Made by a program: the position numbers and the translations under genes. Positions 1 to 59,704 of a DNA stretch of 64,000 nt are shown here, piece after piece; the first letter of the stretch is position 1; the number at the start of each line of letters is the position of its first letter. The notes below the pieces were generated by a model that was not told where the DNA came from, did no database searches, and saw only the letters and a list, made by a program, of their open reading frames with translations. The stretch comes from Bacillota bacterium (GTDB taxonomy: Bacteria > Bacillota > Clostridia > Peptostreptococcales > Anaerovoracaceae). The DNA is taken from assembly GCA_017459895.1 (NCBI GenBank), contig JAFUCA010000038.1, forward strand, positions 55,545 to 119,544, read 5' to 3'.

Positions 1-756
1 CGGCTGGAGGAGACCTACGGGACGGAGATCCGCATCATTCACAATGCGCCCTTCGATATCTCCGCCACCGAGATCCGGGAGAGGCTGGCCGCGGGAGCAT
101 CCGCGGAAGGCCTGGTCCCCCCGGCGGTCCTGGAGTACATCCGGGAGCACGGGCTCTATCGCAATCAGGATCTGAATGCCCGGGGCCTTGCCTACATCCG
201 GGAGCACCTGAAGGAGTCCCGGCTGGCCCACACCTGCCGGGTAGCGGATACCGCCGTGACCCTGGCCAGACGCTTCGGCGCCGATCCTGCAAAGGCTGAG
301 ACGGCCGCGATCTTCCACGACATGGCAAAGAACATGTCCGCAGAGGAGATGAACGAGCAGATCCGAAGCTTCGGACTTGATGAAAAATATATAGACAACC
401 CGAATCTTGCCCACAGCAAGATCGCCCGCTGCCTGATGGTGCGGGACTTCGGCATCACCGACGAGGATATCCTGAACGCGGTGGCCTATCATACCACCGG
501 CCGGGCGGGGATGAGCCTTCTGGAGAAGGTCGTATTCCTGGCCGATGCCATTGAACCGGGGCGCAGCTATCCTTCGGCGGAGGAAATTCGAAGGATCGCA
601 GACACCGACCTGGACCGGGCCTGCCTTTGCATGCTGGAGAGAACCGTCGCCTACCTGAAGAAGAAGGGCGCCCGGATCGATACCGACACGACAGATGCGC
701 TGGCGTATCTGAAAGATAAACCAATTCTCAATGAGGAGGAGAACAAACATGCTTGA
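1..756 (+). CDS. NadD-YqeK fusion protein (5' truncated by window edge)
   Basis: The frame is open from base 1 to the TGA at 754-756. Its first ~55 visible residues match the C-terminus of nicotinate-mononucleotide adenylyltransferase NadD, with the ISATEIRERL motif and the ending VLEYIREHGLY. Without a stop it runs into a YqeK-type HD-domain phosphohydrolase with the metal motif IFHDMAK and H-T-C-R-V upstream. YqeK proteins hydrolyse diadenosine tetraphosphate symmetrically; NadD makes deamido-NAD. In Bacillus these are separate adjacent genes, so this looks like a fusion. An internal ATG at 256 is not needed, because the YqeK domain begins before it. The stop overlaps rsfS by 8 bp, giving the usual nadD-yqeK-rsfS order. 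Confidence 0.85.
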   Translation, partial: RLEETYGTEIRIIHNAPFDISATEIRERLAAGASAEGLVPPAVLEYIREHGLYRNQDLNARGLAYIREHLKESRLAHTCRVADTAVTLARRFGADPAKAETAAIFHDMAKNMSAEEMNEQIRSFGLDEKYIDNPNLAHSKIARCLMVRDFGITDEDILNAVAYHTTGRAGMSLLEKVVFLADAIEPGRSYPSAEEIRRIADTDLDRACLCMLERTVAYLKKKGARIDTDTTDALAYLKDKPILNEEENKHA

Positions 757-1093
757 ACCGAACGAAATGGCTCAGAAGATTGCGCAGAAGCTGGCCGACA
801 ACAAGGCAGCGGATGTCATGATCATCGACATCAGCCCGAAATCGTCCTTCGCGGATTACTTTGTCATGGGGTCCGCAGCCAATGAACGGCAGCTGGAAGC
901 GCTGAAGGACTACGTCGAGGGTCTGCTGGAACCGATGGAGATCTTTCCGAAGAGCATCGAAGGCAAACGGGATTCCGGATGGATCCTGATGGACTACGGC
1001 GACGTCATCGTCAATATTCTGACCCGCGAGATGCGTGAGAAGTACAACATCGAGAAAATCTGGGGCGACTGCGAGATGGTCACCTGCGAATAA
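749..1093 (+). CDS. rsfS: Ribosome silencing factor RsfS
   Basis: 114-aa RsfS/YbeB/DUF143 protein. The family binds ribosomal protein uL14 and blocks subunit joining when nutrients are scarce. Family features are the [17 protein letters not shown] segment and the closing W-I-L-M-D-Y-G-D stretch around residues 78-86. The ATG at 749 is preferred over the in-frame ATG at 731, because GAGGAGGAG at 732-740 sits 8 nt before 749. The start lies inside the end of the NadD-YqeK gene, so translation is probably coupled. leuS follows after 26 nt. Confidence 0.9.
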
Positions 1094-1119
1094 ATCAACA
1101 TGGAGGGAATCAGGTAGCA

Positions 1120-3588: not shown

Positions 3589-3591
3589 CAT

Positions 3592-8332: not shown

Positions 8333-9552
8333 AGAGCATCGAACTGCTGGCGCCGGCGGGCGATCCCGAAAAACTGAAAATCGCGATCCGTTACGGCGCC
8401 GATGCCGTTTATTTCGGCGGCCGCAGCTTCAGCCTGCGGGCGGGAGCCGGCGGGATGTCCCTTCCGGAGATCCGGGAGTGCGTCGCCTATGCCCATGAGC
8501 GGGGCGTCCGCTGCCACATGACACTGAACATCTACGCGCATAACGAGGATCTGCAGCCTTTGCGGGAATACATCAAAGAGCTGTCGGATATTCCCATCGA
8601 CGCGTTTATCGTATCGGATCCGGCGGTCATTCAGCTTCTGCAGGAGTATGCGCCGGAGGCGGAGCTGCACCTGTCGACCCAGGCCAACACGACGAATTAT
8701 CTGGCAGCCCGGTTCTGGTACGATCTTGGGATCCGGCGTCTGGTGCTGGCCAGGGAGCTGTCTCTTGAGGAAATCGCCCGGATCCGCGGGGAGATCCCGG
8801 AGGATATGGAGCTGGAAGCCTTCGCCCATGGCGCGATGTGCATCTCTTATTCCGGCCGGTGCCTGCTGAGCAATTTCATGACCGGGCGGGATGCCAACCG
8901 GGGCGCCTGCGCCCATCCCTGCCGCTACAAGTACCGTCTGGAGGAGGAGAAGCGGCCCGGAGAGTACTGGCCCGTGGAGGAGGACGCCCGGGGAACGTAC
9001 ATCTTCAATTCCAACGACCTCTGCATGCTGGAGCACATCGGGGATCTCGCAAAGGCTGGCGTAACCTCCCTGAAGATCGAGGGGCGGATGAAGAGCATTT
9101 TTTATATCGCCCACGTGATCGGCGCCTACCGCAGAGCCATCGACGCCTATGAGGCAGGGGAGCCCTTCGATCCCGCCTGGATGGAAGAGATGATGAAGGC
9201 AAGCCACCGGAATTTCACCACCGGGTTCTATTATCACGAGCCGGGAGCGGAGGATCAGAACTACTCCTCCAGCGCCTATTCGAGAGATTACGCCTTCGTG
9301 GGGCTGGTCCAGGACTTTGATCCGGAAACCGGACTTGCGGTGGTGGAACAGAGAAACAAGATGGTCCTGGGGGATACGATCGAGGTGTTCGGTCCGGGGC
9401 AGTCCGGATTTACCCAGAGGATCAGTGAAATGTATGACGAAGAGGGGGAGCCTCTGGAATCTGCGCCCCATCCGCAGCAGATTCTGAAAATGCGGATGAT
9501 GCAGCCGGTCTCTTCCGGCTGGATGCTGCGAAAGAAACAATCAAAGGAGTAA
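8329..9552 (+). CDS. Peptidase U32 family protein, likely tRNA uridine hydroxylation factor (TrhP type)
   Basis: 407-aa U32-family protein. The family signature is clear at about residues 163-205: AFAHGAMCISYSGRCLLSN, then RGACAHPCRYKY, whose cysteines ligate an Fe-S centre in characterised members. In Bacillus and E. coli such proteins (TrhP/YegQ) make 5-hydroxyuridine at tRNA position 34 using prephenate. The overlap with trmR supports a two-step wobble modification pathway. Only one U32 gene is present here, whereas Bacillus has two. Confidence 0.82.
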   Translation: MKSIELLAPAGDPEKLKIAIRYGADAVYFGGRSFSLRAGAGGMSLPEIRECVAYAHERGVRCHMTLNIYAHNEDLQPLREYIKELSDIPIDAFIVSDPAVIQLLQEYAPEAELHLSTQANTTNYLAARFWYDLGIRRLVLARELSLEEIARIRGEIPEDMELEAFAHGAMCISYSGRCLLSNFMTGRDANRGACAHPCRYKYRLEEEKRPGEYWPVEEDARGTYIFNSNDLCMLEHIGDLAKAGVTSLKIEGRMKSIFYIAHVIGAYRRAIDAYEAGEPFDPAWMEEMMKASHRNFTTGFYYHEPGAEDQNYSSSAYSRDYAFVGLVQDFDPETGLAVVEQRNKMVLGDTIEVFGPGQSGFTQRISEMYDEEGEPLESAPHPQQILKMRMMQPVSSGWMLRKKQSKE

Positions 9553-12851: not shown

Positions 12852-14059
12852 ACCCGATCCGCGTCGGACAACTGAATCAGTACATCGGCCGGATCCTCAG
12901 AAACGATCCACTGCTGTCGGATGTATCCGTGATCGGCGAGATCTCCAACCTGAAATTTCACAGCTCCGGGCACATCTACTTCTCACTGAAGGATGAAGCC
13001 TCCCGGATCGACTGTTTTCTCTCGTCCCGGATCGCGCCCCAGATCCGCTGTCCGCTGGAGGAGGGGCTGGAGGTCGTCGCCGCCGGGTTCGTATCCGTCT
13101 ACGAGCGGGGCGGCCGGTATTCGCTGAACATCATGGATCTGGAGACCGCCGGCCGGGGGCAGCTGGCCGTTCGCTTTGAGCAGCTCAAGCAAAGGCTGGA
13201 GAGCGAGGGGCTGTTTGATCCGGCGCACAAGAAGCCGATCCCGTCCTTCCCGTCAAAGATCGCGGTCATTACCTCCCCCACGGGAGCGGCGGTCCGGGAT
13301 ATACAGAAGATCATACGAAGCAAGAACGACTACGTCAGCATCCTGATCGTTCCCGTCCTGGTGCAGGGACCCTCGGCAGCCCAGGACATCGCCGATGCGA
13401 TCAGGGAAGTCAACGAACGGTGTCCGGAGGTGGACGTCATCATCACCGGACGGGGCGGCGGCAGCGCCGAGGAGCTGTGGGCCTTCAACGAGGAAATCGT
13501 TGCCCGGAGCATCTACGCCTCGGAGATCCCGGTGATCTCGGCGGTGGGTCATGAAACGGATTTCACCATCTCCGATTTCGTGGCGGACCTGCGGGCCGAA
13601 ACACCGACGGCAGCGGCGGACCGGGCGGTTCCGGACATCGAAGAGCTGCGGCAGATGATGCTCTTTTACCGGGACGAGATGACCCGCACGCTGCAGCTTC
13701 GCACCGAAGCGGCGCGCCAGAGGCTTTCGGCAATGGACCCGGCAGCCTTTGCATCCGGAATCCGTACGAGAATCGAATACGATCAGATGTACTCGGACGG
13801 CCTCGCCGCGGGGATGACCGACCGGATGCGGCAGCTTCTGAAGGAACAGATGCACCGGATCGAGCTTCTGCGAAACACCATCGAATCGGCCAATCCCTAT
13901 GAGCTGCTGAACCGCGGTTATTCCATGATCCGCGGGGAAGGGCAGAGCGTGATTCACTCCGTGCGGGATCTTGTCCCGGGGCAGAGTGTGATGATCCGTA
14001 TGAGCGATGGAAGCGCCGAGGCGCAGATCGTCAGGATCGATGAGGAGGATCTGATATGA
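12842..14059 (+). CDS. xseA: Exodeoxyribonuclease VII large subunit
   Basis: 405-aa XseA. It has an N-terminal OB fold (residues ~5-100; ISNLKFHSSGHIYFSLKD) and then the catalytic domain with ITSPTGAAVRDI, GRGGGSAEELWAFN and SAVGHETDFT. The C-terminal coiled-coil contacts XseB and the end carries NRGYSMIR. It degrades single-stranded DNA with XseB, whose gene overlaps by 4 bp (ATGA). At 405 residues it is slightly shorter than E. coli XseA. Confidence 0.95.
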   Translation: MGLNPIRVGQLNQYIGRILRNDPLLSDVSVIGEISNLKFHSSGHIYFSLKDEASRIDCFLSSRIAPQIRCPLEEGLEVVAAGFVSVYERGGRYSLNIMDLETAGRGQLAVRFEQLKQRLESEGLFDPAHKKPIPSFPSKIAVITSPTGAAVRDIQKIIRSKNDYVSILIVPVLVQGPSAAQDIADAIREVNERCPEVDVIITGRGGGSAEELWAFNEEIVARSIYASEIPVISAVGHETDFTISDFVADLRAETPTAAADRAVPDIEELRQMMLFYRDEMTRTLQLRTEAARQRLSAMDPAAFASGIRTRIEYDQMYSDGLAAGMTDRMRQLLKEQMHRIELLRNTIESANPYELLNRGYSMIRGEGQSVIHSVRDLVPGQSVMIRMSDGSAEAQIVRIDEEDLI

Positions 14060-17041: not shown

Positions 17042-17838
17042 AAGACCGACTTGACAGTATCGCCGCCGGCCGCGGTCTGTTTGAATCAAGAGAAAAAGCA
17101 AAGGCCTCGATCATGGCGGGCCTCGTCTATGTGGACGGGCAGCGGATCGATAAACCGGGAACGAAGATCGATACACAGGCCGAGATCACCGTCGCTTCCG
17201 CCGGCTGTCCCTACGTCAGCCGGGGCGGATTGAAGCTGGAGAAGGCGATCGGCTGTTTCGGTCTGGATCTGAAGGGTGCAAAGGCTGTGGATATCGGTGC
17301 ATCCACCGGCGGTTTCACCGACTGCATGCTCCAGAATGGCGTCTCCCATGTCACCTGCATCGATGTGGGGTACGGCCAGCTGGACTGGAAGCTGCGAAAC
17401 GATCCCCGGGTAACCAATCTGGAAAAGACCAACGTACGGTATCTGGATGCGGATGACGTAGGAACCGACCACGATTTCATCTCCATCGATGTTTCGTTTA
17501 TTTCCCTGAAGCTGGTGCTCCCGGTGGCCGCCCGGCTGCTGCGGGAGGAGGGGCAGCTGGTGTGCCTTGTGAAACCGCAGTTTGAAGCCGGAAGGGAGCA
17601 GGTGGGAAAGAAGGGAATCGTCCGGGATCCGGCGGTCCACCGGCATGTGATCCGGCAGGTGATCGGCTACGGAAAGGACGCGGGACTTGCCTCCGTGGGG
17701 CTGGATTTTTCCCCGGTCACAGGTACCAAAGGAAATATTGAATATCTTCTTTTCATGACGAAGAAACTGTGCGATAATACAATGGGTGAGGAGGACGTTT
17801 CCCGCATTGTAGAACAGTCTCATCTGCAGCTGAAATAA
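17038..17838 (+). CDS. tlyA: TlyA family rRNA 2'-O-methyltransferase (hemolysin A)
   Basis: 266-aa protein with an N-terminal S4 RNA-binding domain (residues ~3-60, GLFESREKAKASIMAGLVYV) and an FtsJ-like methyltransferase domain starting VDIGASTGGFTDC at about residue 84. TlyA proteins 2'-O-methylate rRNA cytidines. The start is a GTG at 17038 overlapping the dxs stop (GTGA). The S4 domain begins right there, and longer in-frame starts upstream would lie inside dxs. Confidence 0.88.
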   Translation: MKDRLDSIAAGRGLFESREKAKASIMAGLVYVDGQRIDKPGTKIDTQAEITVASAGCPYVSRGGLKLEKAIGCFGLDLKGAKAVDIGASTGGFTDCMLQNGVSHVTCIDVGYGQLDWKLRNDPRVTNLEKTNVRYLDADDVGTDHDFISIDVSFISLKLVLPVAARLLREEGQLVCLVKPQFEAGREQVGKKGIVRDPAVHRHVIRQVIGYGKDAGLASVGLDFSPVTGTKGNIEYLLFMTKKLCDNTMGEEDVSRIVEQSHLQLK

Positions 17839-43611: not shown

Positions 43612-43627
43612 GCAAAGGCTGTGCCAA
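43612..43627 (-). promoter_or_regulatory. Sigma-54 promoter of DUF362-thiolase-BKACE unit
   Basis: Minus strand reads TTGGCACAGCCTTTGC, identical over 16 bases to the promoter at 35677-35692, with GG-N10-GC. It is 74 nt before the DUF362 ATG. Confidence 0.85.
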
Positions 43628-43748: not shown

Positions 43749-44978
43749 TTAATAAGCCTGTTTGAGGATCTCAATGATGTCTTCTTTGGTGATGCCCTGT
43801 CTGGGGTTGAAGCCTAATACGGGTTCGTGGAGGACGTCGGTTGCCAGCATATCGAAGTCGTCCTTCGTGATGCCCTGCTCCTGCAGGGTCTTGATGCCCA
43901 GGTCCTTGGTGAGCTGCAGCAGCGCGTCCGCCAGAAGATATTTGTCGGTTTCGGGATCGCCGGTGGGCGCAAGGCCAATGGACTTCGCCAGGTCCACCAT
44001 CTTCTCCGGGGCAGCCTCGGCGTTATAGCGCATCACGTACGGGAGCACGCAGGCGTTGGCCATGCCGTGGGCCAGTCCGAAATGAGCGCTCAGGGTGTGA
44101 GCGATGCCGTGGACGAGGCCGAGGTTGGCATTGGAAAAACTGAATCCGGTAATGATGCAGCCCAGCATCATCTGTTCCCGGGCATCCATATCATCTCCGT
44201 TTTCGCAGACCCTGGGCAGGTTGTGATAGAGGATCTCCAGTCCCTTCAGGGCATTGTACTCTGTCAGAGGAGTCGCCATATTGGAGATGTAGCTTTCGAC
44301 GGCGTGGGTGATGGCATCCATGCCGGTGGCCGCGCTCACGCTGCGGGGAACGGTCCGGGTCAGCTCGGGATCGGCGATCACATCGGTCGCGACGATGTTG
44401 TTATCGATGACCACGTATTTGATGACCTTCTCGGTGTCGATCAAGGCGCTGACGTTGGTGATCTCGCTGGATGTGCCTGCGGTGGTCGGGATCGCAATCA
44501 GGGGCAGACAGGGGTTCTTGACCATGTTCATCCCGCCGTACTCTCCGATCCTTCCCGGGTTGGTCATCAGAATATTGACCGCCTTGGCCAGATCGATGCT
44601 GGATCCGCCGCCCACGGCAACAAAGCCTTCCACCTTCGCTTCTTTGGCGATCTTCGCCGCCTCCTCCACCACTTCATTGGTGGGATTGGGGATTACACCG
44701 TCAAAGATGGTATAGGATACTCCAACTGAAGAACTGCCACGCAGCGAAGCTGCTGCAGTTCCTGTAGGGGCACTGCGCGCCGCATCAGAGATGCGGGCTG
44801 TGCTCCCAGCCTTTGCGACCTGTTCGATGACCTTGTCCGCGATCCCGGCCGCCTTGACGCCGCCGTCATAGACGATCATCACCGACTTCAGCCGGTAGCC
44901 TTCGATGATCCGCGGCAGGTCCGCCAGCGCGCCCCGTCCGAAATCGATGTTGCTCTTAACATAAAAATTATAACTCAT
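43749..44978 (-). CDS. Iron-containing alcohol dehydrogenase with low-complexity insert
   Basis: 409-aa group III Fe-ADH. It has VGGGSSIDLAKAVNILM (NAD), DAITHAVESYIS and LVHGIAHTLSAHFGLAHGMANA with the Fe-binding histidines. Between IADKVIEQV and YTIFDGVIPNPT, where relatives have a short loop, residues ~55-88 form an Ala/Ser/Gly-rich insert that carries one GCAAAGGCTG 10-mer at 44807. GGAGGAG precedes the ATG. The substrate is unknown. It is upstream of the sigma-54 unit with its own terminator. Confidence 0.88.
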   Translation of the reverse strand: MSYNFYVKSNIDFGRGALADLPRIIEGYRLKSVMIVYDGGVKAAGIADKVIEQVAKAGSTARISDAARSAPTGTAAASLRGSSSVGVSYTIFDGVIPNPTNEVVEEAAKIAKEAKVEGFVAVGGGSSIDLAKAVNILMTNPGRIGEYGGMNMVKNPCLPLIAIPTTAGTSSEITNVSALIDTEKVIKYVVIDNNIVATDVIADPELTRTVPRSVSAATGMDAITHAVESYISNMATPLTEYNALKGLEILYHNLPRVCENGDDMDAREQMMLGCIITGFSFSNANLGLVHGIAHTLSAHFGLAHGMANACVLPYVMRYNAEAAPEKMVDLAKSIGLAPTGDPETDKYLLADALLQLTKDLGIKTLQEQGITKDDFDMLATDVLHEPVLGFNPRQGITKEDIIEILKQAY

Positions 44979-46237: not shown

Positions 46238-48862
46238 TCAGCCCAGCAGCTCCTCCGCCTTTGCAAAGGCTGCGCCGACCTTGGACGCGTCCTTCGCGCC
46301 GGCCATCGCCATGTTGGCCTTGCCGCCGCCGCCGCCGCCGGCAGCCTTTGCGATCTCCTTGATCAGCTTGCCCGCGTGATAGCCCTGCTCCACCAGATCG
46401 TCGCTGACGGAGACCATGAAGTTGACCTTGCCCTTGCGCACCGCCGCGAAGACCATGATGATGTTCTTTTCTTTCGCCCGCAGACCGTCCGCGATGGTGC
46501 GAAGATCATCCGCGCCGAAATCATCGAACTGCTTGCAGATCAGGCGGACGCCGTTCACATCCTTCGCCTCATCAATAAGGGAGCCGAGACCTGCCGCCAT
46601 CTTCTCCTGCTTCTGGGACTCGATTTCCTTCTTGAGGGTCTTCACCTCGCCCAGAAGAGATGCCGCCTTGTCCATGATGTTCTCACGGCTGACCTTCATG
46701 ACATCCGTCAGGCTGCCGAGCACGTTCTCGTTCTTCACATAGTGCTCCAGAATGCCGAGGCCGGTGATCGCCTCGATCCGGCGCACACCGGAAGCGACGC
46801 CGGACTCGCTGAGGATCCGGAAGGCGCCGACCTGGCCCGTATTCTTGACGTGGGTTCCTCCGCAGAGTTCCTTGCTGAAGTCGCCGATGGAAACCACCCG
46901 GACCGTATCCCCGTACTTCTCTCCGAACAGGGCCATGGCCCCGGACTTGAAGGCTTCCTTCGCCGGCATGACCTGCGTGGTCACGTCGATGAAATGGCCG
47001 ATCTTATTGTTGACGATCTCTTCGACCTTACGGATTTCCTCCGCCGTCATCGCCTGATAGTGGCTGAAGTCGAAGCGCAGTCCGTCCCGGGTCACCGAAG
47101 AGCCTGCCTGTTTGACATGGCTTCCCAGCACCTCCTGCAGGGCCTTGTGCAGCATATGGGTCGCTGTGTGGTTGGCCGCAGTGCGGTTGCGGGGGATCTC
47201 ATTGTAACCGCCCAGGATCGTATCGCCGCTCTTCAGAACGCCGCCGCGTCCGGTCACATGATGGACGTAGACCTTCTGGAACTTCTCCACATGATCGACG
47301 GTGGCGCTGCCGTTATCGTTATAGATGAGGCCGGTATCGCTGGCCTGGCCGCCGCTCTCCGCGTAGAACGGTGTTTTGTCCAGGATCACGACCGCTTTCT
47401 GTCCCTCCCGGATCTCTTCCACCGGCTCATGGTCTACCAGCATCGCCTTGATGACGCTCCGGCAGCCCACCTGATCGTATCCGACAAACTCGGTCTCCCC
47501 TTCGAAGACAAAGTCCGTGGCGGCTTCTTCCCAGCCGGCGCCTTCCATCTCCTGCTGTTTCTGGGAGCGCGCCTTCTGCTCCGCCATGGCCTCCTCGAAT
47601 CCCTTCTGGTCCACTTCGAATCCCGCCTCCGCCAGGATCTCCCTGGTGAGGTCGATGGGGAAACCATAGGTGTCGTGGAGCTTGAATGCCTTCTCGCCGT
47701 CCAAAACGCTCTTCTGAGCGTCTTTCATCTCCTGGGTGTATTCCTCAATGATCTTCATGCCCTGATCGATCGTAGCGGCGAAATTCGCCTCCTCCGCCGC
47801 GATGACCTTGTGGATGAAGACCCGCTGCTTCTCCAGCTCCGGATAGGCCTTGCCGGAGACGTCCACCACCTTCTCGCTGAGGGACGCCAGGAACGGACCC
47901 TCGATCCCCAGCAGCCGGCCGTGTCGCGCTGCCCGGCGGATCAGCCGGCGCAGGACATACTCTCTGCCCTCGTTGCCCGGCAGGATCCCGTCGCTGATCA
48001 TGAAGGTCATGGAACGCAGATGGTCCGTGATGATCCGCATGGATACATCGCTGTCCGCTCTTCCCTGCTGGTATTTCACCCCGCTGACCCGGGCCACTTC
48101 CTTCAGGATGTACTGAATGGTATCCACATCGAAGATCGAGCTGGTGTCCTGCATGATGCAGGCGATCCGCTCCAGGCCCATGCCCGTATCGATGTTCGGG
48201 TGGGGCAGCGGCGTATAGCTGCCGTCTTCTTCCTTGATAAACTGGGTGAACACCAGATTCCAGAATTCTACGTAACGGTCGCATTCGCAGCCGGGCTTGC
48301 AGTCGGCCCGCCCGCAGCCGTGCTCTTCTCCCCGGTCGAAATAGATCTCGGAACAGGGACCGCAGGGGCCGCCCACGCCGATCTCCCAGAAGTTGTCATC
48401 CTTGCCCAGGGCAACGATCTTCTCCTCGGGAATGCCGATCATATCCCGCCAAAGGCCTCTGGCCTCCTCATCCTCTTCATAAATGGTGACCCAAAGCTTC
48501 TCCTCCGACAGCTTCAGCACATTGGTCGCGAAATCCCAGCTCCAGGTGATGGCCTCTTTTTTGAAATAATCGCCGAAAGAGAAGTTGCCCAGCATCTCAA
48601 AGAAGGTGCCGTGGCGGTCGGTGTGTCCCACGTTATCCAGATCTCCGGTCCGGATACATTTCTGGCATGTGGTCATGCGCTTCGAGGGGGGTGTCTCCAG
48701 CCCTGCGAAGTACGGCTTCAGCGGGGCCATGCCGGCGCCGATCAGCAGCAGACTCTTGTCGCTTTCGGGGATCAGCGAATAGCTGCCTCTGCGGAAGTGT
48801 CCCTGCTTCTCGAAGTAATCCAGAAACATCTCTCTAATTGTATTCAGACCGAGTTTTTCCAT
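46238..48862 (-). CDS. alaS: Alanyl-tRNA synthetase
   Basis: 874-aa class II synthetase. The catalytic core begins GLNTIREMFLDYFEKQGH. The editing domain has NHTATHMLHKAL and KELCGGTHVKNTGQ with the Zn ligands, and a Gly-rich C-terminal C-Ala domain has AAGGGGGGKANMAMAG. The start MEKLGLN at 48862 fits family starts; a frame reaching 48928 would overlap the promoter. Two GCAAAGGCTG 10-mers (46263, 46340) lie in the last 110 nt. No T-box leader is present in the short upstream region. Confidence 0.96.
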   Translation of the reverse strand: MEKLGLNTIREMFLDYFEKQGHFRRGSYSLIPESDKSLLLIGAGMAPLKPYFAGLETPPSKRMTTCQKCIRTGDLDNVGHTDRHGTFFEMLGNFSFGDYFKKEAITWSWDFATNVLKLSEEKLWVTIYEEDEEARGLWRDMIGIPEEKIVALGKDDNFWEIGVGGPCGPCSEIYFDRGEEHGCGRADCKPGCECDRYVEFWNLVFTQFIKEEDGSYTPLPHPNIDTGMGLERIACIMQDTSSIFDVDTIQYILKEVARVSGVKYQQGRADSDVSMRIITDHLRSMTFMISDGILPGNEGREYVLRRLIRRAARHGRLLGIEGPFLASLSEKVVDVSGKAYPELEKQRVFIHKVIAAEEANFAATIDQGMKIIEEYTQEMKDAQKSVLDGEKAFKLHDTYGFPIDLTREILAEAGFEVDQKGFEEAMAEQKARSQKQQEMEGAGWEEAATDFVFEGETEFVGYDQVGCRSVIKAMLVDHEPVEEIREGQKAVVILDKTPFYAESGGQASDTGLIYNDNGSATVDHVEKFQKVYVHHVTGRGGVLKSGDTILGGYNEIPRNRTAANHTATHMLHKALQEVLGSHVKQAGSSVTRDGLRFDFSHYQAMTAEEIRKVEEIVNNKIGHFIDVTTQVMPAKEAFKSGAMALFGEKYGDTVRVVSIGDFSKELCGGTHVKNTGQVGAFRILSESGVASGVRRIEAITGLGILEHYVKNENVLGSLTDVMKVSRENIMDKAASLLGEVKTLKKEIESQKQEKMAAGLGSLIDEAKDVNGVRLICKQFDDFGADDLRTIADGLRAKEKNIIMVFAAVRKGKVNFMVSVSDDLVEQGYHAGKLIKEIAKAAGGGGGGKANMAMAGAKDASKVGAAFAKAEELLG

Positions 48863-49731: not shown

Positions 49732-51744
49732 TTATGCAGCCTGGGAAGCCGCCTGATGCAGCGCATACTGCTCGTCGAAGTGCGCGCGGATCTTTCTGGA
49801 GATCGCAACCACGACGCAGACCATGACGAGAATCGCGATCAGTCCGGGCAGGAAGCCTGCTGCCATATGTCCGGCAGTGACGAGCGTGCCCACCTGATTG
49901 ATCAGGAACGCTACTGTGTAGCCGACGCACATCTGCAGACCGATGGCGCACCACAGCCAGCCTTTGCTACGCATCTCGGAGTTCATCGCGCCGATGGCCG
50001 CGAAGCACGGGGGTGTGAACAGGTTGAAGAACAGATATGCGATAGCGCCGACACCGGTCAGACCCATAGCTGCCGCGACGGTGTTGGCATCGCCGGTCAT
50101 TGCCAGCTCATCCGTATCGATGAATCTGGTCAGTCCGTATACGACCGCCAGAGTACCGACGACGTTCTCCTTAGCGATGAATCCGGTAACAGCGGCTGCC
50201 GCCAGCTGCCATACGCCGCATCCCAGCGGGATCAGCAGGAAGGCGAACGGGGTCGCGATGGATGCCAGGATCGAAGTGTCCTCCATGCCTTCCGGTACGA
50301 CCTGGAAATGCCAGTTGAACGCCTGCATCAGCTGTACGACCAGGTTGCAGACCAGGATGATGGTGGCTGCCTTGATGATGTATGCTTTCGCACGCTCCAT
50401 CATGGACCAGAATGCCCGCTTGAGGCTCGGTGCCTTCCACTTCGGCAGCTCCATGATGAAGAAGGATTTTCTGAACTTCGCGCCGGTGACTGCCTTAACC
50501 AGCAGTGCGCCCAGGAAGATCAGCAGCAGTCCGGAGAAGTAGCAGATGAAGGTAACCCAGCCGGCTCCCGCGAAGAAAGCTCCCGCGAACAGCGCGATGA
50601 CCGGAATCTTCGCGCCGCAGGGAATGAATGTGGTCAGCATAGCTGTCGCTCTTCTCTCTCTTTCGTCACGGATGGTTCTGGATGCCATGATTCCCGGAAC
50701 GCCGCAGCCGGTTCCGACGATGATCGGAATGACGGACTTGCCGGACAGGCCTACCCGCTTGAAGATCGGGTCAAGCACAGCCGTAACACGAGCCATGTAG
50801 CCGCAGTCCTCCAGCAGCGCGATCAGGAAGAACATGACCATGATCAGGGGCAGGAAGCCTACGACGGCACCGACGCCGCCGATGATACCGCCGCCGATGA
50901 TGGTGGTCAGCAGAGCCGGGCTGTTCTCCATGGCTCCTTCCACGAATCCCTGGAACGTCTCGATCCAGCCTACCAGCCAGTCGGCGATCCATGTGCCCAG
51001 ATAGGTCTGGGAAATAGCGAATACACACCACATAACAGCAGCGAAGATGATGATGCCGGCGACCGGATTGGTCAGTACGGCATCCAGCTTGTCTGCCTTC
51101 GTGGTCTCACTGGAGACAACCTTTCTGGTCTCCACTGCCTTGACGATCTCATTGGCAAAGGCAAAACGCTTACGGTCTTCCGCGTCGACCGCCGCCTTGT
51201 CGTGCAGGTCGATGTCTGCCTGAAGGTACGGAGCCTTCTGCCCCTGTCCGTTCAGCGAAATCGCCTTCTGGCAGACCTCTGCCAGTCCGTTGTTGTTCTT
51301 TTCGGTGGAAACCGTCTCGATTACAGGACAGCCCAGCTTTTGCTCGAGTGCCGCCACGTCGATCTTGGTTCCTTCCTTCTCGTTGATGTCGCTCTTGTTC
51401 AGCGCGACAACGACGGGGATTCCCAGCTCCAGCAGCTGGGTGGTGAAAAACAGGCTCCGGCTCAGGTTGGTAGCATCCACGATGTTGATGATGGCGTCCG
51501 GATGCTCGTCCCGGACGAACTCACTGGTGATGCCCTCCTCCGGTGTGAACGGAGACATGGAATAGGCGCCCGGAAGGTCGACGGCAGTAACGTCGGCTCC
51601 GCCCGCGTATTCCTTTAATAATGGAGCTTCTTTCTTACCTACGGTAACTCCGGCCCAGTTACCTACTCTCTCGTTGAGTCCCGTCAGCTGGTTGTACATA
51701 GTCGTCTTACCGCTGTTCGGGTTGCCGGCAAATGCGATTCTCAT
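49732..51744 (-). CDS. feoB: Ferrous iron transport protein FeoB
   Basis: 670-aa Fe2+ permease. The N-terminal G domain has G1 GNPNSGKTT (residues 7-15), G3 DLPGAYSM and G4 NKSD. The membrane part has Gate motifs, including GTGCGVPGIMASR and FIPCGAKIPVIALF with the conserved Cys residues. An RVGNWAGVTVGKKEA switch segment is present. feoA lies upstream on the same strand. Confidence 0.96.
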   Translation of the reverse strand: MRIAFAGNPNSGKTTMYNQLTGLNERVGNWAGVTVGKKEAPLLKEYAGGADVTAVDLPGAYSMSPFTPEEGITSEFVRDEHPDAIINIVDATNLSRSLFFTTQLLELGIPVVVALNKSDINEKEGTKIDVAALEQKLGCPVIETVSTEKNNNGLAEVCQKAISLNGQGQKAPYLQADIDLHDKAAVDAEDRKRFAFANEIVKAVETRKVVSSETTKADKLDAVLTNPVAGIIIFAAVMWCVFAISQTYLGTWIADWLVGWIETFQGFVEGAMENSPALLTTIIGGGIIGGVGAVVGFLPLIMVMFFLIALLEDCGYMARVTAVLDPIFKRVGLSGKSVIPIIVGTGCGVPGIMASRTIRDERERRATAMLTTFIPCGAKIPVIALFAGAFFAGAGWVTFICYFSGLLLIFLGALLVKAVTGAKFRKSFFIMELPKWKAPSLKRAFWSMMERAKAYIIKAATIILVCNLVVQLMQAFNWHFQVVPEGMEDTSILASIATPFAFLLIPLGCGVWQLAAAAVTGFIAKENVVGTLAVVYGLTRFIDTDELAMTGDANTVAAAMGLTGVGAIAYLFFNLFTPPCFAAIGAMNSEMRSKGWLWCAIGLQMCVGYTVAFLINQVGTLVTAGHMAAGFLPGLIAILVMVCVVVAISRKIRAHFDEQYALHQAASQAA

Positions 51745-52361: not shown

Positions 52362-53921
52362 CTACCGCCTCCGACGCGGCACGGTGTGGAGGGACTGCCC
52401 GAACACGTCCTCCAGCGCCTCGGCGATGCCTTCATTATAAGTCGGATGTGGCCGTATGCTGCGGAGCATGTCCTCCACGGTCAGATCGTTGACGATGGCG
52501 GTGGCGAATTCCGCGATCATGTCCGTCGCTCGGGCACACATCATCTGGGCTCCGAGCACTTTGTGGGAAGTCGCATCGGCAACGACTTTGATGAAACCGC
52601 GCTCCTCCCTGGTGATCAGGGATTTCCCATTGGCGCTCATGATGAACTTACCGGCAGCCATCTCGATCCCCTGCTCTTTTGCCTGGGCTTCTGTGATGCC
52701 GACGGTGGCGATCTCCGGGTCGGTATAGACGCCCGCCGGGATCACGTCGATCTTCTGTGCAAAGGCTGGAGCGGCAGCTGCGCTGTCCCCCTGACCCTGC
52801 CCGGCCAGAATCTCCTCCACTGCCCGCGCGCCCTGCGCGGAGGCTGCATGGGCCAGCATGATCCCGCCCGCCAGGTCGCCGATGGCATACACGCCCGGCA
52901 TGGAAGTCCGGAAATGCTCATCCACCGCGACGAATCTGCGGTTCATTCGAATGAAGCTGCCGCCGGCCGCGGGCTCATCCGCCTGCAGCACCGCGACGCC
53001 CTCTCCGAACAGTCCTTCGGTCACCGGCGCTCTTCCGGCGGCAACCAGAACGTACTCCGCGGACAGCTCCTGTGCCTTCCCTTTCTCTTCAAAGGAAACA
53101 CGTACCCAGTCGTCATCCGCGGGCAGGCACTCCTTCACGGAGGCGTTCAGATGGGCCTCCACGCCCCGCTTCTTCAGGATCATTTTCAGATTCTGGGAGA
53201 TCTCCTTATCGAAGTTGTCCAGCAGCTTCGGCAGCGCCTCGATAATGGTGACTTCCGTCCCCAGGTTGGAAAATACGGTAGCAAATTCCACGCCGATGAC
53301 GCCGCCCCCGATGATGATCAGGCTCTGTGGCGCATCCTCCAGAGCAAACAGACCGTCACTGTCCAGCACATGGGGCAGATCCATACCCGGCACCGGGATC
53401 CGGGCCGGCTTCGAGCCCGCCGCCAGGATCACATTCCTGGCGCAGTATACGGCATCAGAAGCGGCCGCGCCGGACTCTCCCGCGCCTTGACTACCTTCAG
53501 CAGCGATGTCGCTGGTCTTTCTATCAGCACCGCTGCTGACCTGCACCCGGTTCAGGCCATCCTGGGCGGAAAGCAATGTTCCCGTGCCTTCCAGGATTGT
53601 GACGCCGTTTGCCTCCAGCAGCTGTTCGATGCCTCCCACCAGCTGATCGACGCTTTCCTGTTTGTATTTCAGGATCTCTTCATAGTCGTAGGCGGCATCC
53701 TCGGCGAACAGACCGAACCGCTGTCCGCAGACTGCTTCCCGGTAAAGGGACGACGCATGGATCATTGCCTTGGCAGGGATGCATCCCCGGTTCAGGCACG
53801 TTCCCCCCACCCGGCGGTTCTCTGCGACGGCAACATTCAGTCCGGCTTTCGCGGCCTTGATCGCAGCCACATAGCCTCCCGGCCCGGCGCCGATCACGAT
53901 CAGATCAAATTCCCTCTTCAT
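52362..53921 (-). CDS. lpdA: Dihydrolipoyl dehydrogenase (glycine cleavage L protein)
   Basis: 519-aa FAD disulfide oxidoreductase. FAD motif VIGAGPGGYVAAIKAAKAG; redox pair C42/C47 in GGTCLNRGCIPAK; NAD motif IIGGGVIGVEF; and the C-terminal RPHPTYNEGIAEA with the catalytic His-Glu. Compared with the usual ~460 residues it has two Ala/Gly/Ser-rich inserts, at ~130-158 and ~375-390. The second holds a GCAAAGGCTG 10-mer (52759). It reoxidises the GcvH lipoyl group. Separated from gcvPB by array C. Confidence 0.93.
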   Translation of the reverse strand: MKREFDLIVIGAGPGGYVAAIKAAKAGLNVAVAENRRVGGTCLNRGCIPAKAMIHASSLYREAVCGQRFGLFAEDAAYDYEEILKYKQESVDQLVGGIEQLLEANGVTILEGTGTLLSAQDGLNRVQVSSGADRKTSDIAAEGSQGAGESGAAASDAVYCARNVILAAGSKPARIPVPGMDLPHVLDSDGLFALEDAPQSLIIIGGGVIGVEFATVFSNLGTEVTIIEALPKLLDNFDKEISQNLKMILKKRGVEAHLNASVKECLPADDDWVRVSFEEKGKAQELSAEYVLVAAGRAPVTEGLFGEGVAVLQADEPAAGGSFIRMNRRFVAVDEHFRTSMPGVYAIGDLAGGIMLAHAASAQGARAVEEILAGQGQGDSAAAAPAFAQKIDVIPAGVYTDPEIATVGITEAQAKEQGIEMAAGKFIMSANGKSLITREERGFIKVVADATSHKVLGAQMMCARATDMIAEFATAIVNDLTVEDMLRSIRPHPTYNEGIAEALEDVFGQSLHTVPRRRR

Positions 53922-54175: not shown

Positions 54176-55624
54176 TCATTTTTCAAACGCATATTTCAGC
54201 ACCGGATGACGGGCCGCGCCCACCTCATCCAGCCGGGTGACCGGCGTGCTGTGAGGCGCATGATGCAGGTATTCCGGATCGTCGTGTGCCAGCTGATACA
54301 GGGACCGCAGCACATCAATCGCCTCATCCAGAGTTTCCTTCGTCTCCGTTTCGGTCGGCTCCACCATCAGAGCCTCGTGGACCGTCAGCGGGAAGTACAT
54401 CGTCGGCGGATGGATCCCGTGATCCAGCAGACCCTTGGCGATGTCCATGGCGGATACGCCCGTCTCCTTCAGCAACGCCGAGAGATCCATGACGAATTCG
54501 TGCATGCATACTTCCGTACCAAAGGCAATGTCATACAGATCCCGCAGCTTTGCCATCATGTAGTTGGCGTTCAGGACCGCATTCGCCGATGCCTCCGCGA
54601 TTCCCGCCGCTCCCAGCATCTTGATGTAGGTCAGAGCCTTCACGGCCACCAGGAAGTTGCCATAGAAGTTCTTCATCTCACCGAAGCTCTCCGCGGGTTT
54701 CACGAAGGTCAGCTCGCCGCCGGCAGCTTCCACCACCAGCCCCGGCAGGAACTTCGCCAGATGCTCCTTGCAGCCGACCGGACCTGCGCCCGGGCCGCCG
54801 CCGCCGTGAGGCGTGGAGAAGGTCTTGTGCAGATTCAGGTGCACACAGTCAAAGCCCATATCCGCCGGCCGGGCCACGCCCATGACCGCGTTCAGATTCG
54901 CGCCGTCGTAATACACCTGTCCTCCGCAGGCATGAATGATGTCCGTGATCTCCCGGATGTTCGGATCGAACAGGCCCGCCGTATTCGGATTGGTCAGCAT
55001 GAGACCCGCGATCTGCGCGCCTTCTTCGCTTTCGCACAGTTCCCGGAGCTTGGCCACATCCACGCAGCCCTTTTCATCGGAATCCACATTGATGACCGAC
55101 ATACCCGCCATGACCGCGCTGGCCGGGTTGGTCCCGTGGGCCGAATCCGGAACGATGATCTTCGTCCTTGCGGTATCCCCGTTCGCCAGGTGGTACGCCT
55201 TGATCAGCAGAAGTCCGGTAAATTCCCCGTGTGCTCCCGCCGCCGGCTGCAGTGTGAACCGGGCCATGCCGGTGATCGCCGCCAGCGCCTCCTCGATCTC
55301 GCGGAGCACGCGCAGCGCACCCTGCACCGTATGCAAAGGCTGGAGCGGGTGGATCTGGGTAAATCCCGGAAGGGATGCCGCCGTCTCATTGACCCTGGGA
55401 TTGTATTTCATCGTGCAGGAGCCCAGGGGATAAAATCCGTCGTTGACACCGTGGGCCTTGTGTGCCAGCTCCGTATAATGCCGGGACAGTTCCACCTCCG
55501 GCACCTGAGGCAGGCGCAGGGGTTTTTCCCGCAGGTCCTTCTCCTCAAAAGCATATTCCGGTACGTCGCAGGCTGGGAGCAGGCTGCAGCCCCGGCCTTC
55601 CCTGCTCTTTTCGTAGATCAGCAT
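54176..55624 (-). CDS. gcvPB: Glycine dehydrogenase (decarboxylating) subunit 2
   Basis: 482-aa P-protein beta half. The PLP lysine is in HLNLHKTFSTPHGGGGPG at about residue 270. SCTMKYNPRVNE and FTLQPAAGAHGEFTG are further family motifs. With GcvPA it decarboxylates glycine and loads aminomethyl onto GcvH. It overlaps gcvPA by 7 bp. A GCAAAGGCTG 10-mer at 55333 encodes LQPLH. Confidence 0.95.
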   Translation of the reverse strand: MLIYEKSREGRGCSLLPACDVPEYAFEEKDLREKPLRLPQVPEVELSRHYTELAHKAHGVNDGFYPLGSCTMKYNPRVNETAASLPGFTQIHPLQPLHTVQGALRVLREIEEALAAITGMARFTLQPAAGAHGEFTGLLLIKAYHLANGDTARTKIIVPDSAHGTNPASAVMAGMSVINVDSDEKGCVDVAKLRELCESEEGAQIAGLMLTNPNTAGLFDPNIREITDIIHACGGQVYYDGANLNAVMGVARPADMGFDCVHLNLHKTFSTPHGGGGPGAGPVGCKEHLAKFLPGLVVEAAGGELTFVKPAESFGEMKNFYGNFLVAVKALTYIKMLGAAGIAEASANAVLNANYMMAKLRDLYDIAFGTEVCMHEFVMDLSALLKETGVSAMDIAKGLLDHGIHPPTMYFPLTVHEALMVEPTETETKETLDEAIDVLRSLYQLAHDDPEYLHHAPHSTPVTRLDEVGAARHPVLKYAFEK

Positions 55625-56943
55625 GAGAGCACCTCCTTTACGACGGCAGCGGCCTCATCGATATCGGCCTTCCCGTTCATTTCCGTGCAGCACCAGAGGA
55701 TGCGTTTTCCCTCAGGTCCGTCCAGCGGCAGGCCGCCCAGGATCCCCTTCGCCTCCAGGGCATCCAGGATCTTTCCGGCCGGCACATCGGAGCACGTCAC
55801 AAATTCGTGGAAGAACTCGCCTTCACTGACGGCAAGTCCAGCCTTTGCAAGCTCTGCCGCCATATAATGCGCCTTTGACGCGCACTGGGACGCGACATTC
55901 TTCAGTCCCTCCGGTCCCATGGCCGCCAGATACACACCCACCGCCAGCGCGCAAAGCGCCTGATTGGAGCAGATGTTGCTGGAAGCCTTTTCGCGGCGGA
56001 TGTGCTGCTCCCGGGCCTGCAGGGTCAGAACGTAACCGGTCCGCCCCTCCGTATCCACCGTCTGTCCGACGATCCGCCCGGGGAGCTTGCGCTTCATCGC
56101 ATCGGTCGCTGCCATAAACCCGAGGTACGGTCCGCCAAACGCCATGGGAAGTCCCAAAGGCTGGCCTTCCCCCACCGCAGCATCCGCGCCGTATTCCGCC
56201 GGAGTCTTGAGCACGCCCAGGGAGATCGGATTGACGCCCATGACGAACTTCGCTTTGACGCTGTGAGCGATCTCGCCGATGGCCGCAGCTTCCTCCAGGC
56301 GTCCCGTATAATTCGGATGCTGGATGTAGACGCAGGCCGTCTGATCATCGATCAGCTCCTGCAGCGCAGCGGTGTCGGTGATGCCGTCCTTTTCGGGGAT
56401 CAGCACCAGTTCCATCTCATTGCCGAAGCAGTAGGTCCGGATCGTATCCAGAACCGACGGCTGGATGCAGGAGGAGACCAGCGCTTTGTTTCTCTTTCTC
56501 TCCCGGCACATTGCCACAGCTTCCGCTGCGGCGGTCGCGCCGTCATAGACCGACGCATTGGACACATCCATGCCCGTCAGCTCCGCAATCCCCGTCTGAT
56601 ACTCGAAGATCGACTGGAGCACGCCCTGGCTGATCTCCGCCTGATATGGCGTGTACGCCGTCTGCAGCGTTTCATTCGACAGGACGCTGCAGACCATCGC
56701 CGGGATGTAATGGCGATAGGCTCCGGCGCCCCGGAACACACTGCGGAACACAATATTCTCTGCGGCCATCTGCTCCATCTGCCTCAGAGCCTCCATCTCG
56801 GAAAGCCCCTCCGGCAGAGGCAGCAGGCCGTCATACTTCACGTCACCGGGAATCGCAGCGAAAAGATCTTCGATCTTCTGCATCCCGATCTCACGCAGCA
56901 TCTCCTGTTGCTGCGCGGCTGTATTCGGTACAAAGCTGCCCAT
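55618..56943 (-). CDS. gcvPA: Glycine dehydrogenase (decarboxylating) subunit 1
   Basis: 441-aa P-protein alpha half: FRGAGAYRHYIPAMV, then TAYTPYQAEISQGVLQ, DVSNASVYDGATA and EKASSNICSNQAL. It forms the (alpha-beta)2 decarboxylase with GcvPB. It is 23 nt after gcvH on the same strand. Confidence 0.95.
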   Translation of the reverse strand: MGSFVPNTAAQQQEMLREIGMQKIEDLFAAIPGDVKYDGLLPLPEGLSEMEALRQMEQMAAENIVFRSVFRGAGAYRHYIPAMVCSVLSNETLQTAYTPYQAEISQGVLQSIFEYQTGIAELTGMDVSNASVYDGATAAAEAVAMCRERKRNKALVSSCIQPSVLDTIRTYCFGNEMELVLIPEKDGITDTAALQELIDDQTACVYIQHPNYTGRLEEAAAIGEIAHSVKAKFVMGVNPISLGVLKTPAEYGADAAVGEGQPLGLPMAFGGPYLGFMAATDAMKRKLPGRIVGQTVDTEGRTGYVLTLQAREQHIRREKASSNICSNQALCALAVGVYLAAMGPEGLKNVASQCASKAHYMAAELAKAGLAVSEGEFFHEFVTCSDVPAGKILDALEAKGILGGLPLDGPEGKRILWCCTEMNGKADIDEAAAVVKEVLSC

Positions 56944-57384: not shown

Positions 57385-58476
57385 TTACTTACTTCTCGTA
57401 TAGAAGGGCAGCGGGATGACCTCCGTCTCCACCTGCCGGCCCCGCACGTCGACGACCAGCTTCGTGCCGATTTCGGCGAAGGCCTTCGGCACTCTCGCCA
57501 TGGCAATGGGCTTTTCGCAGCACGGTGTTTTCGTTCCGGATGTGGTATGTCCGATCCGGTTTCCTTCGGTATCGTAAACATCCTGATGCTCCCGCACGAT
57601 GCCCCGGCCGGTGACCTGCAGTCCGACGCGGACCTCCTCCGGTGCTCCCGCCTCCTCCATCGGCTTCTTGCCGATGAAGTCATCCTTCTTCATCTTGACG
57701 GCAAACCCCAGGCCCGCTTCGATCGGCGAAATATCGTCATCCATCTCATGACCGTACAGGGGCATGCCGGCCTCCATCCGCAGCGTATCCCGTGCTCCCA
57801 GTCCGCAGGGGATCAGGCCGAACTCCCTGCCGGCCTCCAGAAGCGCATCCCACATCTTCTCCGCTCTGGCTGCCGGAAGATACAGCTCCACGCCGTCCTC
57901 TCCGGTATATCCGGTCTTGGAGACGATGCAGGGAATTCCCGCAACCTCCGAGGCGATCTTCGCGTGGTAATATTTCGTCGGAATATCCTCCTCCTTCGCC
58001 AGCTTTTGGATGACATCCATTGCCTTCGGGCCCTGCACCGCGATCTGGGCGTACTGATCGGATACATCGGTGAAGGTCACATCGCCTTGCTGGTGCTCCA
58101 GCATCCACTGGAAATCCTTATCCTTATTGGCGGCGTTGACCACGAGGAAGTACTTGTTTTCGTCCATCTTGTATACGATCAGGTCATCCACGGTGCCGCC
58201 GTGCTCATTGCACATCGGGCTGTACCTGGCCTGCTCCAGGACCATGCTGGTAAAGTCGTTGGTCAGGATCCGGTTCAGATTGGCCAGCGCATCCGGACCC
58301 TCGCAGAGGATCTCTCCCATATGGGAAACGTCAAACATACCGACCGCCGTACGTACCGCCAGGTGCTCCTTGTTGACACCCGTACCGTACTGGACCGGCA
58401 GAATATAACCGGCGAAGGGAACCATCTTGCCGCCCGCCTTGACGTGCGCATTATAGAGGGGTGTTTTTAATTCCAT
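57385..58476 (-). CDS. gcvT: Glycine cleavage system T protein (aminomethyltransferase)
   Basis: 363-aa tetrahydrofolate-dependent aminomethyltransferase: [29 protein letters not shown], then [17 protein letters not shown] and [19 protein letters not shown]. The start at 58476 has AAGGAGAAC upstream; the longer frame lies over the DUF1015 gene. It transfers the C1 unit to folate and releases ammonia. Confidence 0.95.
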
Positions 58477-58489
58477 AGTATCGTTCTCC

Positions 58490-59704
58490 TTATTTGATCT
58501 TTCTGGCTTCGATGTAATAGCGTTTATCCGCGGCATGCCCCATGGAAAAGGTCTTGCGCGGCAGCGGTCCGTCGGCCGCGATGGACCGGAACAGATCATT
58601 CTTATCCATGGCCGGAAGCAGCAGCGCGATGCAGCCCGGCTTCTTTCCCAGTTCGATGGTAATGTCATCGCCGTGGACGTAATCGATGCGTCCGCCCTTT
58701 CGCTTCAAATAATCATCGAGGAAAGGCTGGAGTGTCCCGACTTCCAGCTGCGCTGCAGGCTGCGGGATGGTCAGGATCCCTTCCTTCTTTTCCCAGGCGT
58801 AGCGGATGCTGTGGCCTTCCCCCTCGCCTTCATGAGTGCCCGGATAGCAGGCCGCAAGTTCCGTCAGCACGTCCTGGGGATCCACATCGAACAGAACCCG
58901 GTGGATCGGTTCAAATTCCAGGGCATCGTCGTAGAGGTTGACCACCTCCACCAGAGCGTATCTGGACAGCGCCGCCGACGGAAGGCCTTTGGCCTTTTCT
59001 TCCTCATAATGGGCCTTGGCGGATGCCAGTGAATGGTTGCCGTCACCGACCGCGAAGAGCAAAGGCTGGCCCTCCGCCAGTTTCGATAACGACTCAGACA
59101 CCGCCAGCTTTTGCGCATCTGAGAGCAGCATTCCCTTCGCGTGGCCGCCGCCCTCCATCAGATCGAAATCGTAGAGGACATCATCTGAAGCCGCCAGAGG
59201 ACCGATCACGGTGTTATCCGGATCGTCGATCAGCAGCATGATGTGGGGCAGCTCCAGGGACGCGTTCCTGCGCACCGCCTGCCGGGGCGGGATCCGTTCG
59301 AGGACCGTGCCCTCCGTGGCCCGAACCAGCGACTGGCTGTCCGCGGAATAATCATACTCTTCGAGATCGATCCTGCCGATGACGCCCCGGCGGATCCGTC
59401 CGTCGCTTTGCGTCCGCTCCAGGTAGATCATCGCGTCCGGGTACTCCTGAAAAACGCCGTCTTCCTGATAGCGGAGCATCGTCTCATTGATCTTCGCGAT
59501 GTGCTCCTCGGTGTGCCCGTCCGACAGCTGGGCCTCCGGCAGGATCAGCCGCAAAGCCGAGGCCTGGTCCGCAACCGCCGCCTCGACACGCTCCCAGTAC
59601 TCCGGCTGAGATGTGAACTGATCACAGGCAACCACGGCCCATGTTTCAAAGTTCTTCGCAGCAGGCAGGAGAATGTCGGCTGGGGAAAATCCTGTTTTGT
59701 TCAT
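58490..59704 (-). CDS. DUF1015 family protein
   Basis: 404-aa DUF1015 protein: WAVVACDQFTSQPEYWERVE near the N-terminus, HIMLLIDDPDNTVIG, and the conserved FAVGDGNHSLASAKAHYEE. The family is predicted to be HTH-linked or kinase-like and is often near serine/glycine genes; its biochemistry is not settled. As first gene behind the glycine riboswitch and 13 nt before gcvT, it is part of the glycine response. Confidence 0.82.
   Translation of the reverse strand: MNKTGFSPADILLPAAKNFETWAVVACDQFTSQPEYWERVEAAVADQASALRLILPEAQLSDGHTEEHIAKINETMLRYQEDGVFQEYPDAMIYLERTQSDGRIRRGVIGRIDLEEYDYSADSQSLVRATEGTVLERIPPRQAVRRNASLELPHIMLLIDDPDNTVIGPLAASDDVLYDFDLMEGGGHAKGMLLSDAQKLAVSESLSKLAEGQPLLFAVGDGNHSLASAKAHYEEEKAKGLPSAALSRYALVEVVNLYDDALEFEPIHRVLFDVDPQDVLTELAACYPGTHEGEGEGHSIRYAWEKKEGILTIPQPAAQLEVGTLQPFLDDYLKRKGGRIDYVHGDDITIELGKKPGCIALLLPAMDKNDLFRSIAADGPLPRKTFSMGHAADKRYYIEARKIK

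Follow-up and report, generated by a model that had tools for sequence, protein, structure and literature searches.

The motif in the 64-kb window

The subject of this study is a 10-bp DNA word, GCAAAGGCTG, which recurs in a 64,000-nucleotide stretch of a Bacillota genome (hereafter the window; class Clostridia, family Anaerovoracaceae; contig JAFUCA010000038.1 of assembly GCA_017459895.1, positions 55,545 to 119,544, forward strand). The window carries 25 exact copies, 13 in the + and 12 in the − orientation, all between positions 289 and 59068, and this recount agrees exactly with that of an earlier sequence-only reading. The chance expectation of about 0.12 copies given in that reading was a naive figure, as an order-4 Markov model gives 0.52; the claimed over-representation stands, since with 25 observed copies GCAAAGGCTG is still the most deviant 10-mer in the window. 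Sites with at most one mismatch number 47 (22 with one mismatch), whereas 100 dinucleotide shuffles gave 3.9 such sites on average and never more than 13. The copies are listed below; gene names come from a reading of open reading frame (ORF) translations, with no family search.

289..298, +, exact copy
8554..8563, −, exact copy
9049..9058, +, exact copy
13189..13198, +, exact copy within the xseA-like ORF 12842-14059
13743..13752, −, exact copy within the same xseA-like ORF (12842-14059), on the strand opposite to the 13189 copy
17278..17287, +, exact copy
18759..18768, +, exact copy
19575..19584, −, exact copy within the mutS-like ORF 19099-21765
22848..22857, +, exact copy within the mutL-like ORF 21762-23609, reads AKA
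24032..24041, −, exact copy
32929..32938, −, exact copy in the tail of the larC-like ORF 32804-33652
32971..32980, −, exact copy in the larC-like ORF tail, 42 bp from the 32929 copy
35677..35686, +, exact copy; its complement belongs to a strict sigma-54 promoter, TGGCAC-N5-TTGC
35719..35728, +, one-mismatch copy, GCAAAAGCTG, in an inverted pair with the 35736 copy
35736..35745, −, exact copy, intergenic
41957..41966, +, exact copy, first arm of an intergenic inverted pair
41973..41982, −, exact copy, second arm of the intergenic inverted pair with the 41957 copy
43612..43621, +, exact copy; its complement belongs to a second, identical sigma-54 promoter
44807..44816, −, exact copy within the Fe-ADH-like ORF 43749-44978
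46263..46272, +, exact copy at the extreme 3′ end of the alaS-like ORF 46238-48928 (−)
46342..46351, −, exact copy within the alaS-like ORF 46238-48928
49958..49967, −, exact copy within the feoB-like ORF 49732-51744
52759..52768, +, exact copy within the lpdA-like ORF 52362-53921
55333..55342, +, exact copy within the gcvPB-like ORF 54176-55624
55839..55848, −, exact copy within the gcvPA-like ORF 55618-56943
59059..59068, +, exact copy

Abundance, orientation, and spacing across the genome

The assembly to which the window belongs (G000) comprises 2,495,951 bases (2.50 Mb) in 55 contigs and is 93.34% complete with 5.14% contamination. The whole assembly contains 864 copies of GCAAAGGCTG (442 + and 422 −), one per 2.9 kb, whereas the reversed word, taken as a control, occurs 10 times (4 and 6); the motif is thus about 86 times as frequent as its control, and the genome-wide excess that had been asked for as a check is present. 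In 416 kb of this genome, words of the motif rank first at each length from 8 to 14. Analyses of individual sites were based on 796 kb, i.e., 39 stretches and the window, with 323 sites. Contig C14 (9,132 bp) matches a portion of C34 at 99.99% identity, which probably reflects assembly redundancy; it was excluded from the analyses of fetched DNA and is included in the total of 864.

The balanced orientation that had been noted in the window, unlike that of polarised sites, also holds on the larger scale. In addition to the 442/422 division, comparison of motif orientation with local GC skew (10-kb tiles with a skew of 0.03 or more) gave 166:140 (p = 0.15), and hence no strong polarity. The distances between neighbouring sites (284 in the 796 kb) are near exponential with a coefficient of variation of 0.95, and the check for regular spacing among them was negative. 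Eleven of these distances are shorter than 60 bp, and five of the 11 are convergent. Both inverted pairs pointed out in the window (41957-41982 and 35719-35745, the latter with one mismatch) are real, but the weight placed on them does not extend to the genome: with five convergent pairs below 60 bp among 284 distances, such pairs are unusual, and a Neisseria-style inverted-pair habit is absent as a common arrangement. Motif-free deserts were also sought as marks of foreign DNA; the longest internal gap, in four contig runs, was 11.6 kb, compared with about 14 kb expected at random according to our own estimate. Terminators were rejected as a general cause of the motif.

The overlap of two copies with sigma-54 promoters, also noted previously, is exact. 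Four strict sigma-54 promoters (TGGCAC-N5-TTGC) are present in the 796 kb, and the two that contain the motif are both in the window, at 35677 and 43612. TGGCA precedes the motif at just these two of the 323 sites, and sigma-54 promoters were therefore rejected as its general cause. The two promoters are identical (TGGCACAGCCTTTGC, − strand) and embed the motif; the ORF at 35921-37456 near them reads as a sigma-54 activator.

Motif anatomy and selection at the DNA level

Of the checks named in advance, the search for an extended consensus was positive and gave tGCAAAGGCTGG-N5-C, based on all but one of the 323 sites, i.e., the 322 with complete flanks. The preferences in the flanks are T at position -1 (0.66), G at +10 (0.70), C at +16 (0.59), and, less strongly, T at -4 (0.43); each of the remaining flanking columns holds at most 0.11 bits. 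The C at +16 is no mere codon effect, because it reaches 0.58 in the 59 sites that are not wholly genic and ranges from 0.37 to 0.81 across the six reading frames. The 295 one-mismatch sites in the 796 kb are unevenly distributed over the motif (composition uncorrected): 57 carry a G to A change at position 5 and 55 a G to C change at position 0, whereas each individual change seen at positions 3, 4, 7, and 9 occurs 1 to 5 times. The commonest one-mismatch form is GCAAAAGCTG. This uneven tolerance of mismatches resembles that of a binding protein.

Genes were called with a simple codon-usage script and cover 90% of the bases. The 323 sites divide into 263 wholly genic, 58 (18%) intergenic, and 2 on borders, such that intergenic sites are over-represented relative to gene cover. 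The sequence-only reading proposed that the motif favours linkers and inserts; this was assessed as intergenic versus genic alone. Shuffling of synonymous codons predicts 4.1 genic copies (mean of 50 runs, largest 9) compared with the 263 observed, and all six reading frames are used, each at least 17-fold above the shuffled expectation. Selection therefore acts on the DNA and not on a peptide, as had been argued from the frames seen in the window. Moreover, the flanks are not conserved beyond the short extension, and a mobile repeat family, which had been named beforehand as a contrary finding, was rejected.

Within genes, the forward orientation is commoner (155 versus 108 reverse), and the commonest frame is Ala-Lys-Ala (95 of 263). 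A search by gene fifths for a bias of the motif toward gene ends had a mixed outcome: in raw counts, forward copies are fairly even (32, 25, 29, 26, 35), whereas reverse copies differ between fifths and are most numerous at the 5′ end (31, 9, 20, 26, 19).

Conservation in a close relative

One genome of the genus with the same spelling (G011) was compared with G000 in 35 aligned blocks (138,613 columns, 81.6% identity). In this single genome pair, 33 of 48 G000 sites are intact in G011, and 33 of 46 in the reverse comparison. The background is 19.5% of 137,180 10-mers (p about 2e-13 for 33 of 48), and among 10-mers three changes away from the motif, 189 of 1,064 (17.8%) are intact. Identity is 0.92 inside the sites, 0.78 in their flanks, and 0.90 at +16. 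Hence, the copies are conserved in a sister genome, a further check with a positive outcome.

Dialects within the genus

The survey of the genus covered 49 genomes, including G000. The spelling GCAAAGGCTG occurs in hundreds of copies in five of these (864, 556, 355, 332, and 332), the next highest count being 89; among 100 genomes scanned, again including our own, only G000, G011, G010, G001, and G045 have it in hundreds. In 32 of the 49 genomes, however, the density of the core TGCAAAGGC is about 84 per Mb or higher, and in 18 that of TGCAAAGGCA is at least 60 per Mb. None of 300 genomes from the other genera of the family reaches 84 per Mb of the core, the densest having TGCAAAGGC at about 59 per Mb (from a table read by eye, with rounded genome sizes).

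The ending of the core varies by clade. The CTGG and CA endings are well sampled, and CC and CTACA were seen in small samples. Scans of fetched DNA gave TGCAAAGGCA(A) in G008, TGCAAAGGCAG in G016 (9 copies in 51 kb), GCAAAGGCA in G017 (11 in 46 kb), GCAAAGGCC in G030 (16 in 100 kb), CAAAGGCTACA in G034 (6 in 82 kb), and GCAAAGGCT in G033 (17 in 71 kb). In 300 kb of G018, both GCAAAGGC (114) and GCAAAAGC (122) occur, i.e., the ending is loose. The C at +16 recurs in the CA dialect of G008 (0.55 of 84 sites) and in G011 (0.53 of 144); its frequency is 0.42 of 26 sites in G016 and 0.41 of 27 in G034. No motif was found in the first samples of G031, G037, and G041, two of which were small (37 and 30 kb). 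A search for a tag in 300 kb of the motif-poor G037 revealed GCAAAGGC at 123 per Mb, without an ending or a +16 preference.

A tree was built from a TadA/CpaF-type protein for 26 of the 49 genomes, those with TadA-type loci returned by the search, and the thresholds defining the motif classes were fixed in a script before the tree was seen. The CTG spelling forms one clade (4 rows, 100/99), and a single branch separates the motif-poor genomes from the rest (8 rows, 97/97). The CA genomes and the remaining genomes need two changes each. In all, the motif classes require four changes compared with a mean of 14.0 after shuffling. The dialects follow phylogeny and share a core. They are new here and constitute a further hallmark of uptake sequences, one beyond what the sequence-only reading knew of.

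Candidate uptake machinery

Genes of the com and pil types, whose presence was another of the proposed checks, were found. In G000, ComEC (849 aa) and a PilT pass NCBIfam cut-offs, and the genome also has DprA and a TadA-type ATPase. The operon with PilT also encodes a T2SSF-type PilC and four small proteins whose N-termini look hydrophobic by eye; one of the four matches DUF4860. This filament-like operon (L097 7070-10891, on C34 of G000) comprises PilC, the four small proteins, and PilT, with no adjoining PilB-type gene; reading of ORF lists shows the same gene order in G011, G008, G019, and G037. Across the genus, ComEC was found in 40, DprA in 45, and PilC in 29 of the 49 genomes. Both ComEC and DprA are present in all 11 motif-dense genomes that are at least 90% complete. 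The PilT-type ATPases were sorted from other matches by the matched region and frame length. Rank tests of motif density against machinery in the 49 genomes gave p = 0.042 for PilT and p = 0.22 for ComEC; these tests ignore kinship and are blurred by loci missing from drafts. The genes for ComEC, DprA, PilT, and PilC are thus in place, and we infer that they have roles in uptake.

Comparison with known systems

The motif matches the DNA uptake sequence (DUS) and uptake signal sequence (USS) and no other repeat known to us. To our knowledge, tag-based uptake of own-kind DNA has so far been described in two Gram-negative families. The USS of Haemophilus influenzae has a short core with weaker distal positions, as here. 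Chi is likewise a short repeated DNA word; the present motif differs from it in being longer, in lacking polarity, and in differing between congeners.

The DUS dialects of Neisseriaceae follow phylogeny and share a core, and some relatives are without DUS (PMC3630211). The present motif is similar in its length of 10 to 12 bp, its hundreds to thousands of copies per genome, its phylogeny-following dialects, and the existence of relatives without it; the copy number reported for DUS is 943 to 5918 per genome, compared with 864 here (PMC3630211). The motif departs from DUS in its unrelated sequence, its Clostridia host, the preferred C at +16 outside the core, and the rarity of inverted pairs. 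For the USS of Pasteurellaceae, both genic and intergenic copies occur, one subclade has a different spelling, and genic copies favour one orientation (PMC2346458), as they do by 155 to 108 in our case; the sequence is unrelated. The gene-end bias described there (PMC2346458) contrasts with our fairly even forward and uneven reverse copies.

With respect to machinery, the genus resembles users of Gram-positive ComG and Flp/Tad uptake filaments in having ComEC together with filament genes and with TadA-type and PilT-type ATPases, as known here from genes. Flp pili have been linked to competence in Micrococcus luteus (PMC6370729). In contrast to the tag proposed here, a 2025 paper describes DNA uptake as sequence-independent in almost every competent species except Neisseria and Haemophilus (PMC12040237). 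A 2025 review names Neisseria as an exception (PMC12236230). The titles and openings of abstracts listed in the literature searches, which covered a set with preprints and most subscription papers outside it, included no uptake sequence in Clostridia.

Interpretation and alternatives

Taken together, the word is selected as DNA, occurs in both orientations and genome-wide, is kept between relatives, and is re-spelled by clade, as biased uptake followed by recombination would produce. We consider it likely that GCAAAGGCTG forms the core of a signal for DNA uptake in one Clostridia genus, where both the receptor and the uptake are what we infer. This supports the interpretation proposed in the sequence-only reading, and none of the three contrary results it had named was observed. 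As most of the testable sequence-based features of uptake sequences are present, the motif is taken to work like DUS or USS and is filed as a candidate uptake sequence, not a proven member; it is apparently an independent occurrence of this kind of signal.

Several observations weigh against this interpretation. ComEC and PilT-type ATPases are present in motif-dense and motif-poor genomes alike (ComEC in 11 of 11 versus 10 of 11, and PilT in 8 of 11 versus 6 of 11, at 90% completeness or above), so neither singles out the motif-bearers, and the genes for ComEC, DprA, PilT, and PilC show no clear tracking of the motif. No confident match to a pilin family was obtained for any of the four small proteins encoded with PilC and PilT, and no counterpart of ComP, the minor pilin that acts as DUS receptor, was identified. 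Inverted pairs, a known feature of Neisseria, are rare here. Within the genus, the C at +16 does not stand out in G017, G018, G030, and G033, and in 300 kb of the motif-poor G037, TGCAAAGG is mildly above expectation (55 versus 23). Finally, the genomes of the genus sample are drafts, many of them fragmented or under 90% complete.

Alternatively, the motif could be bound by a protein that organises or segregates the chromosome inside the cell and requires non-polar sites in the hundreds, which we regard as unlikely. The balanced orientation, the conservation of site positions in the relative, and the lack of a clear tracking of the motif by uptake genes would all suit such a protein. Most sites, however, are genic and in all frames, and re-spelling by clade would demand a concerted change of hundreds of sites without transfer-based drive. 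The chromosome-organising and segregation systems known to us have tens of sites, not hundreds, and we are aware of no mechanism that would re-spell such intracellular sites clade by clade. For the latter reason, and given that the dialects of Neisseriaceae likewise follow phylogeny and share a core, an uptake signal is the most likely explanation.

A drive through some other route of DNA transfer (gene transfer agent, vesicles, or sequence-preferring conjugation) in place of a competence filament is improbable. In its favour, the search that found the PilC-PilT operon in 29 of the 49 genomes did not find it in several of the motif-dense genomes, but ComEC is present in all 11 motif-dense genomes of at least 90% completeness, though also in most motif-poor ones, and we know of no such system with a genome-wide tag. 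Slightly less probable again is a recombination hotspot of the Chi kind, recognised by an enzyme of the AddAB/RecBCD type. The preference for the forward orientation in genes (155 of 263) is in keeping with it, and one copy per 2.9 kb is of the order of Chi density; nevertheless, the spelling differs among genomes of one genus, a site of 10 to 12 bp plus a distal C is longer than the Chi sites known to us, and a Chi site was rejected given the lack of strand polarity with replication (166:140 relative to GC skew, p = 0.15). An origin in codon usage, repeated peptides, composition, or a family of mobile repeats can practically be dismissed, for although Ala-Lys-Ala is the commonest frame (95 of 263), synonymous shuffling yields 4.1 copies where 263 are genic, which led us to reject a codon or peptide cause, extra-genic sites are over-represented, and flanks are unconserved.

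For an uptake signal, the following model can be outlined. A DNA receptor on the cell surface, in all likelihood one of the subunits of a type IV-type or Tad-type filament, would bind tGCAAAGGCTGG together with the C, which lies about one helical turn from the centre of the core. Fragments bearing the tag would be imported via ComEC, protected by DprA, and recombined. As tagged fragments would be taken up preferentially, molecular drive would let the tag build up in both orientations at all places where the encoded protein can accommodate it. A drift in receptor preference would then slowly re-spell the genome and give rise to clade-specific dialects. On balance, we favour the broader proposition that this Clostridia genus independently evolved a sequence-based recognition of its own DNA, with a two-part tag in several dialects (two well sampled, two based on small samples), a spelling that sets the partners of gene exchange, and a receptor that is new and maybe no relative of ComP.

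Other repeated words and features

Other short words recur in the window and in related genomes. Intergenic arrays at window positions 38139-38420, 45595-45775, and 53948-54125 consist of alternately oriented words of about 10 bp, spaced about every 30 bp: CGTGACAATT in the first array and AACTCTGCCA in the other two. A further array word, ATATGGTAGG, partly palindromic with CCTACCATAT, is found elsewhere in G000 (L011, L014, L017, L101, L108). The words CGTGACAATT, AACTCTGCCA, and ATATGGTAGG occur in 20, 35, and 22 copies in the 796 kb of G000, and none was found in 374 kb of the close relative G011. Other over-represented words are TTCTGACAA in G030 (20 in 100 kb; L092-L096), AAACGGTGAAA (14 copies) and AAACTCTGTATA (6) in 300 kb of G037 (L033-L037, L156, L159-L167), and AACGTGAAGTC in G018 (7 copies; L087-L091, L168-L177). 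These genome-specific words may be variant forms of such arrays. At about position 31000 of the window, the GC skew changes sign and most genes switch direction, a pattern of the kind seen at a replication terminus or in a convergent block.

Significance

If the interpretation as an uptake signal is true, a further and unrelated case in Clostridia would show that DNA self-recognition evolves repeatedly, and models of molecular drive would become testable on a fresh example. Moreover, the bacteria of this genus would be naturally transformable, which could aid genetics in organisms that are poor in tools.

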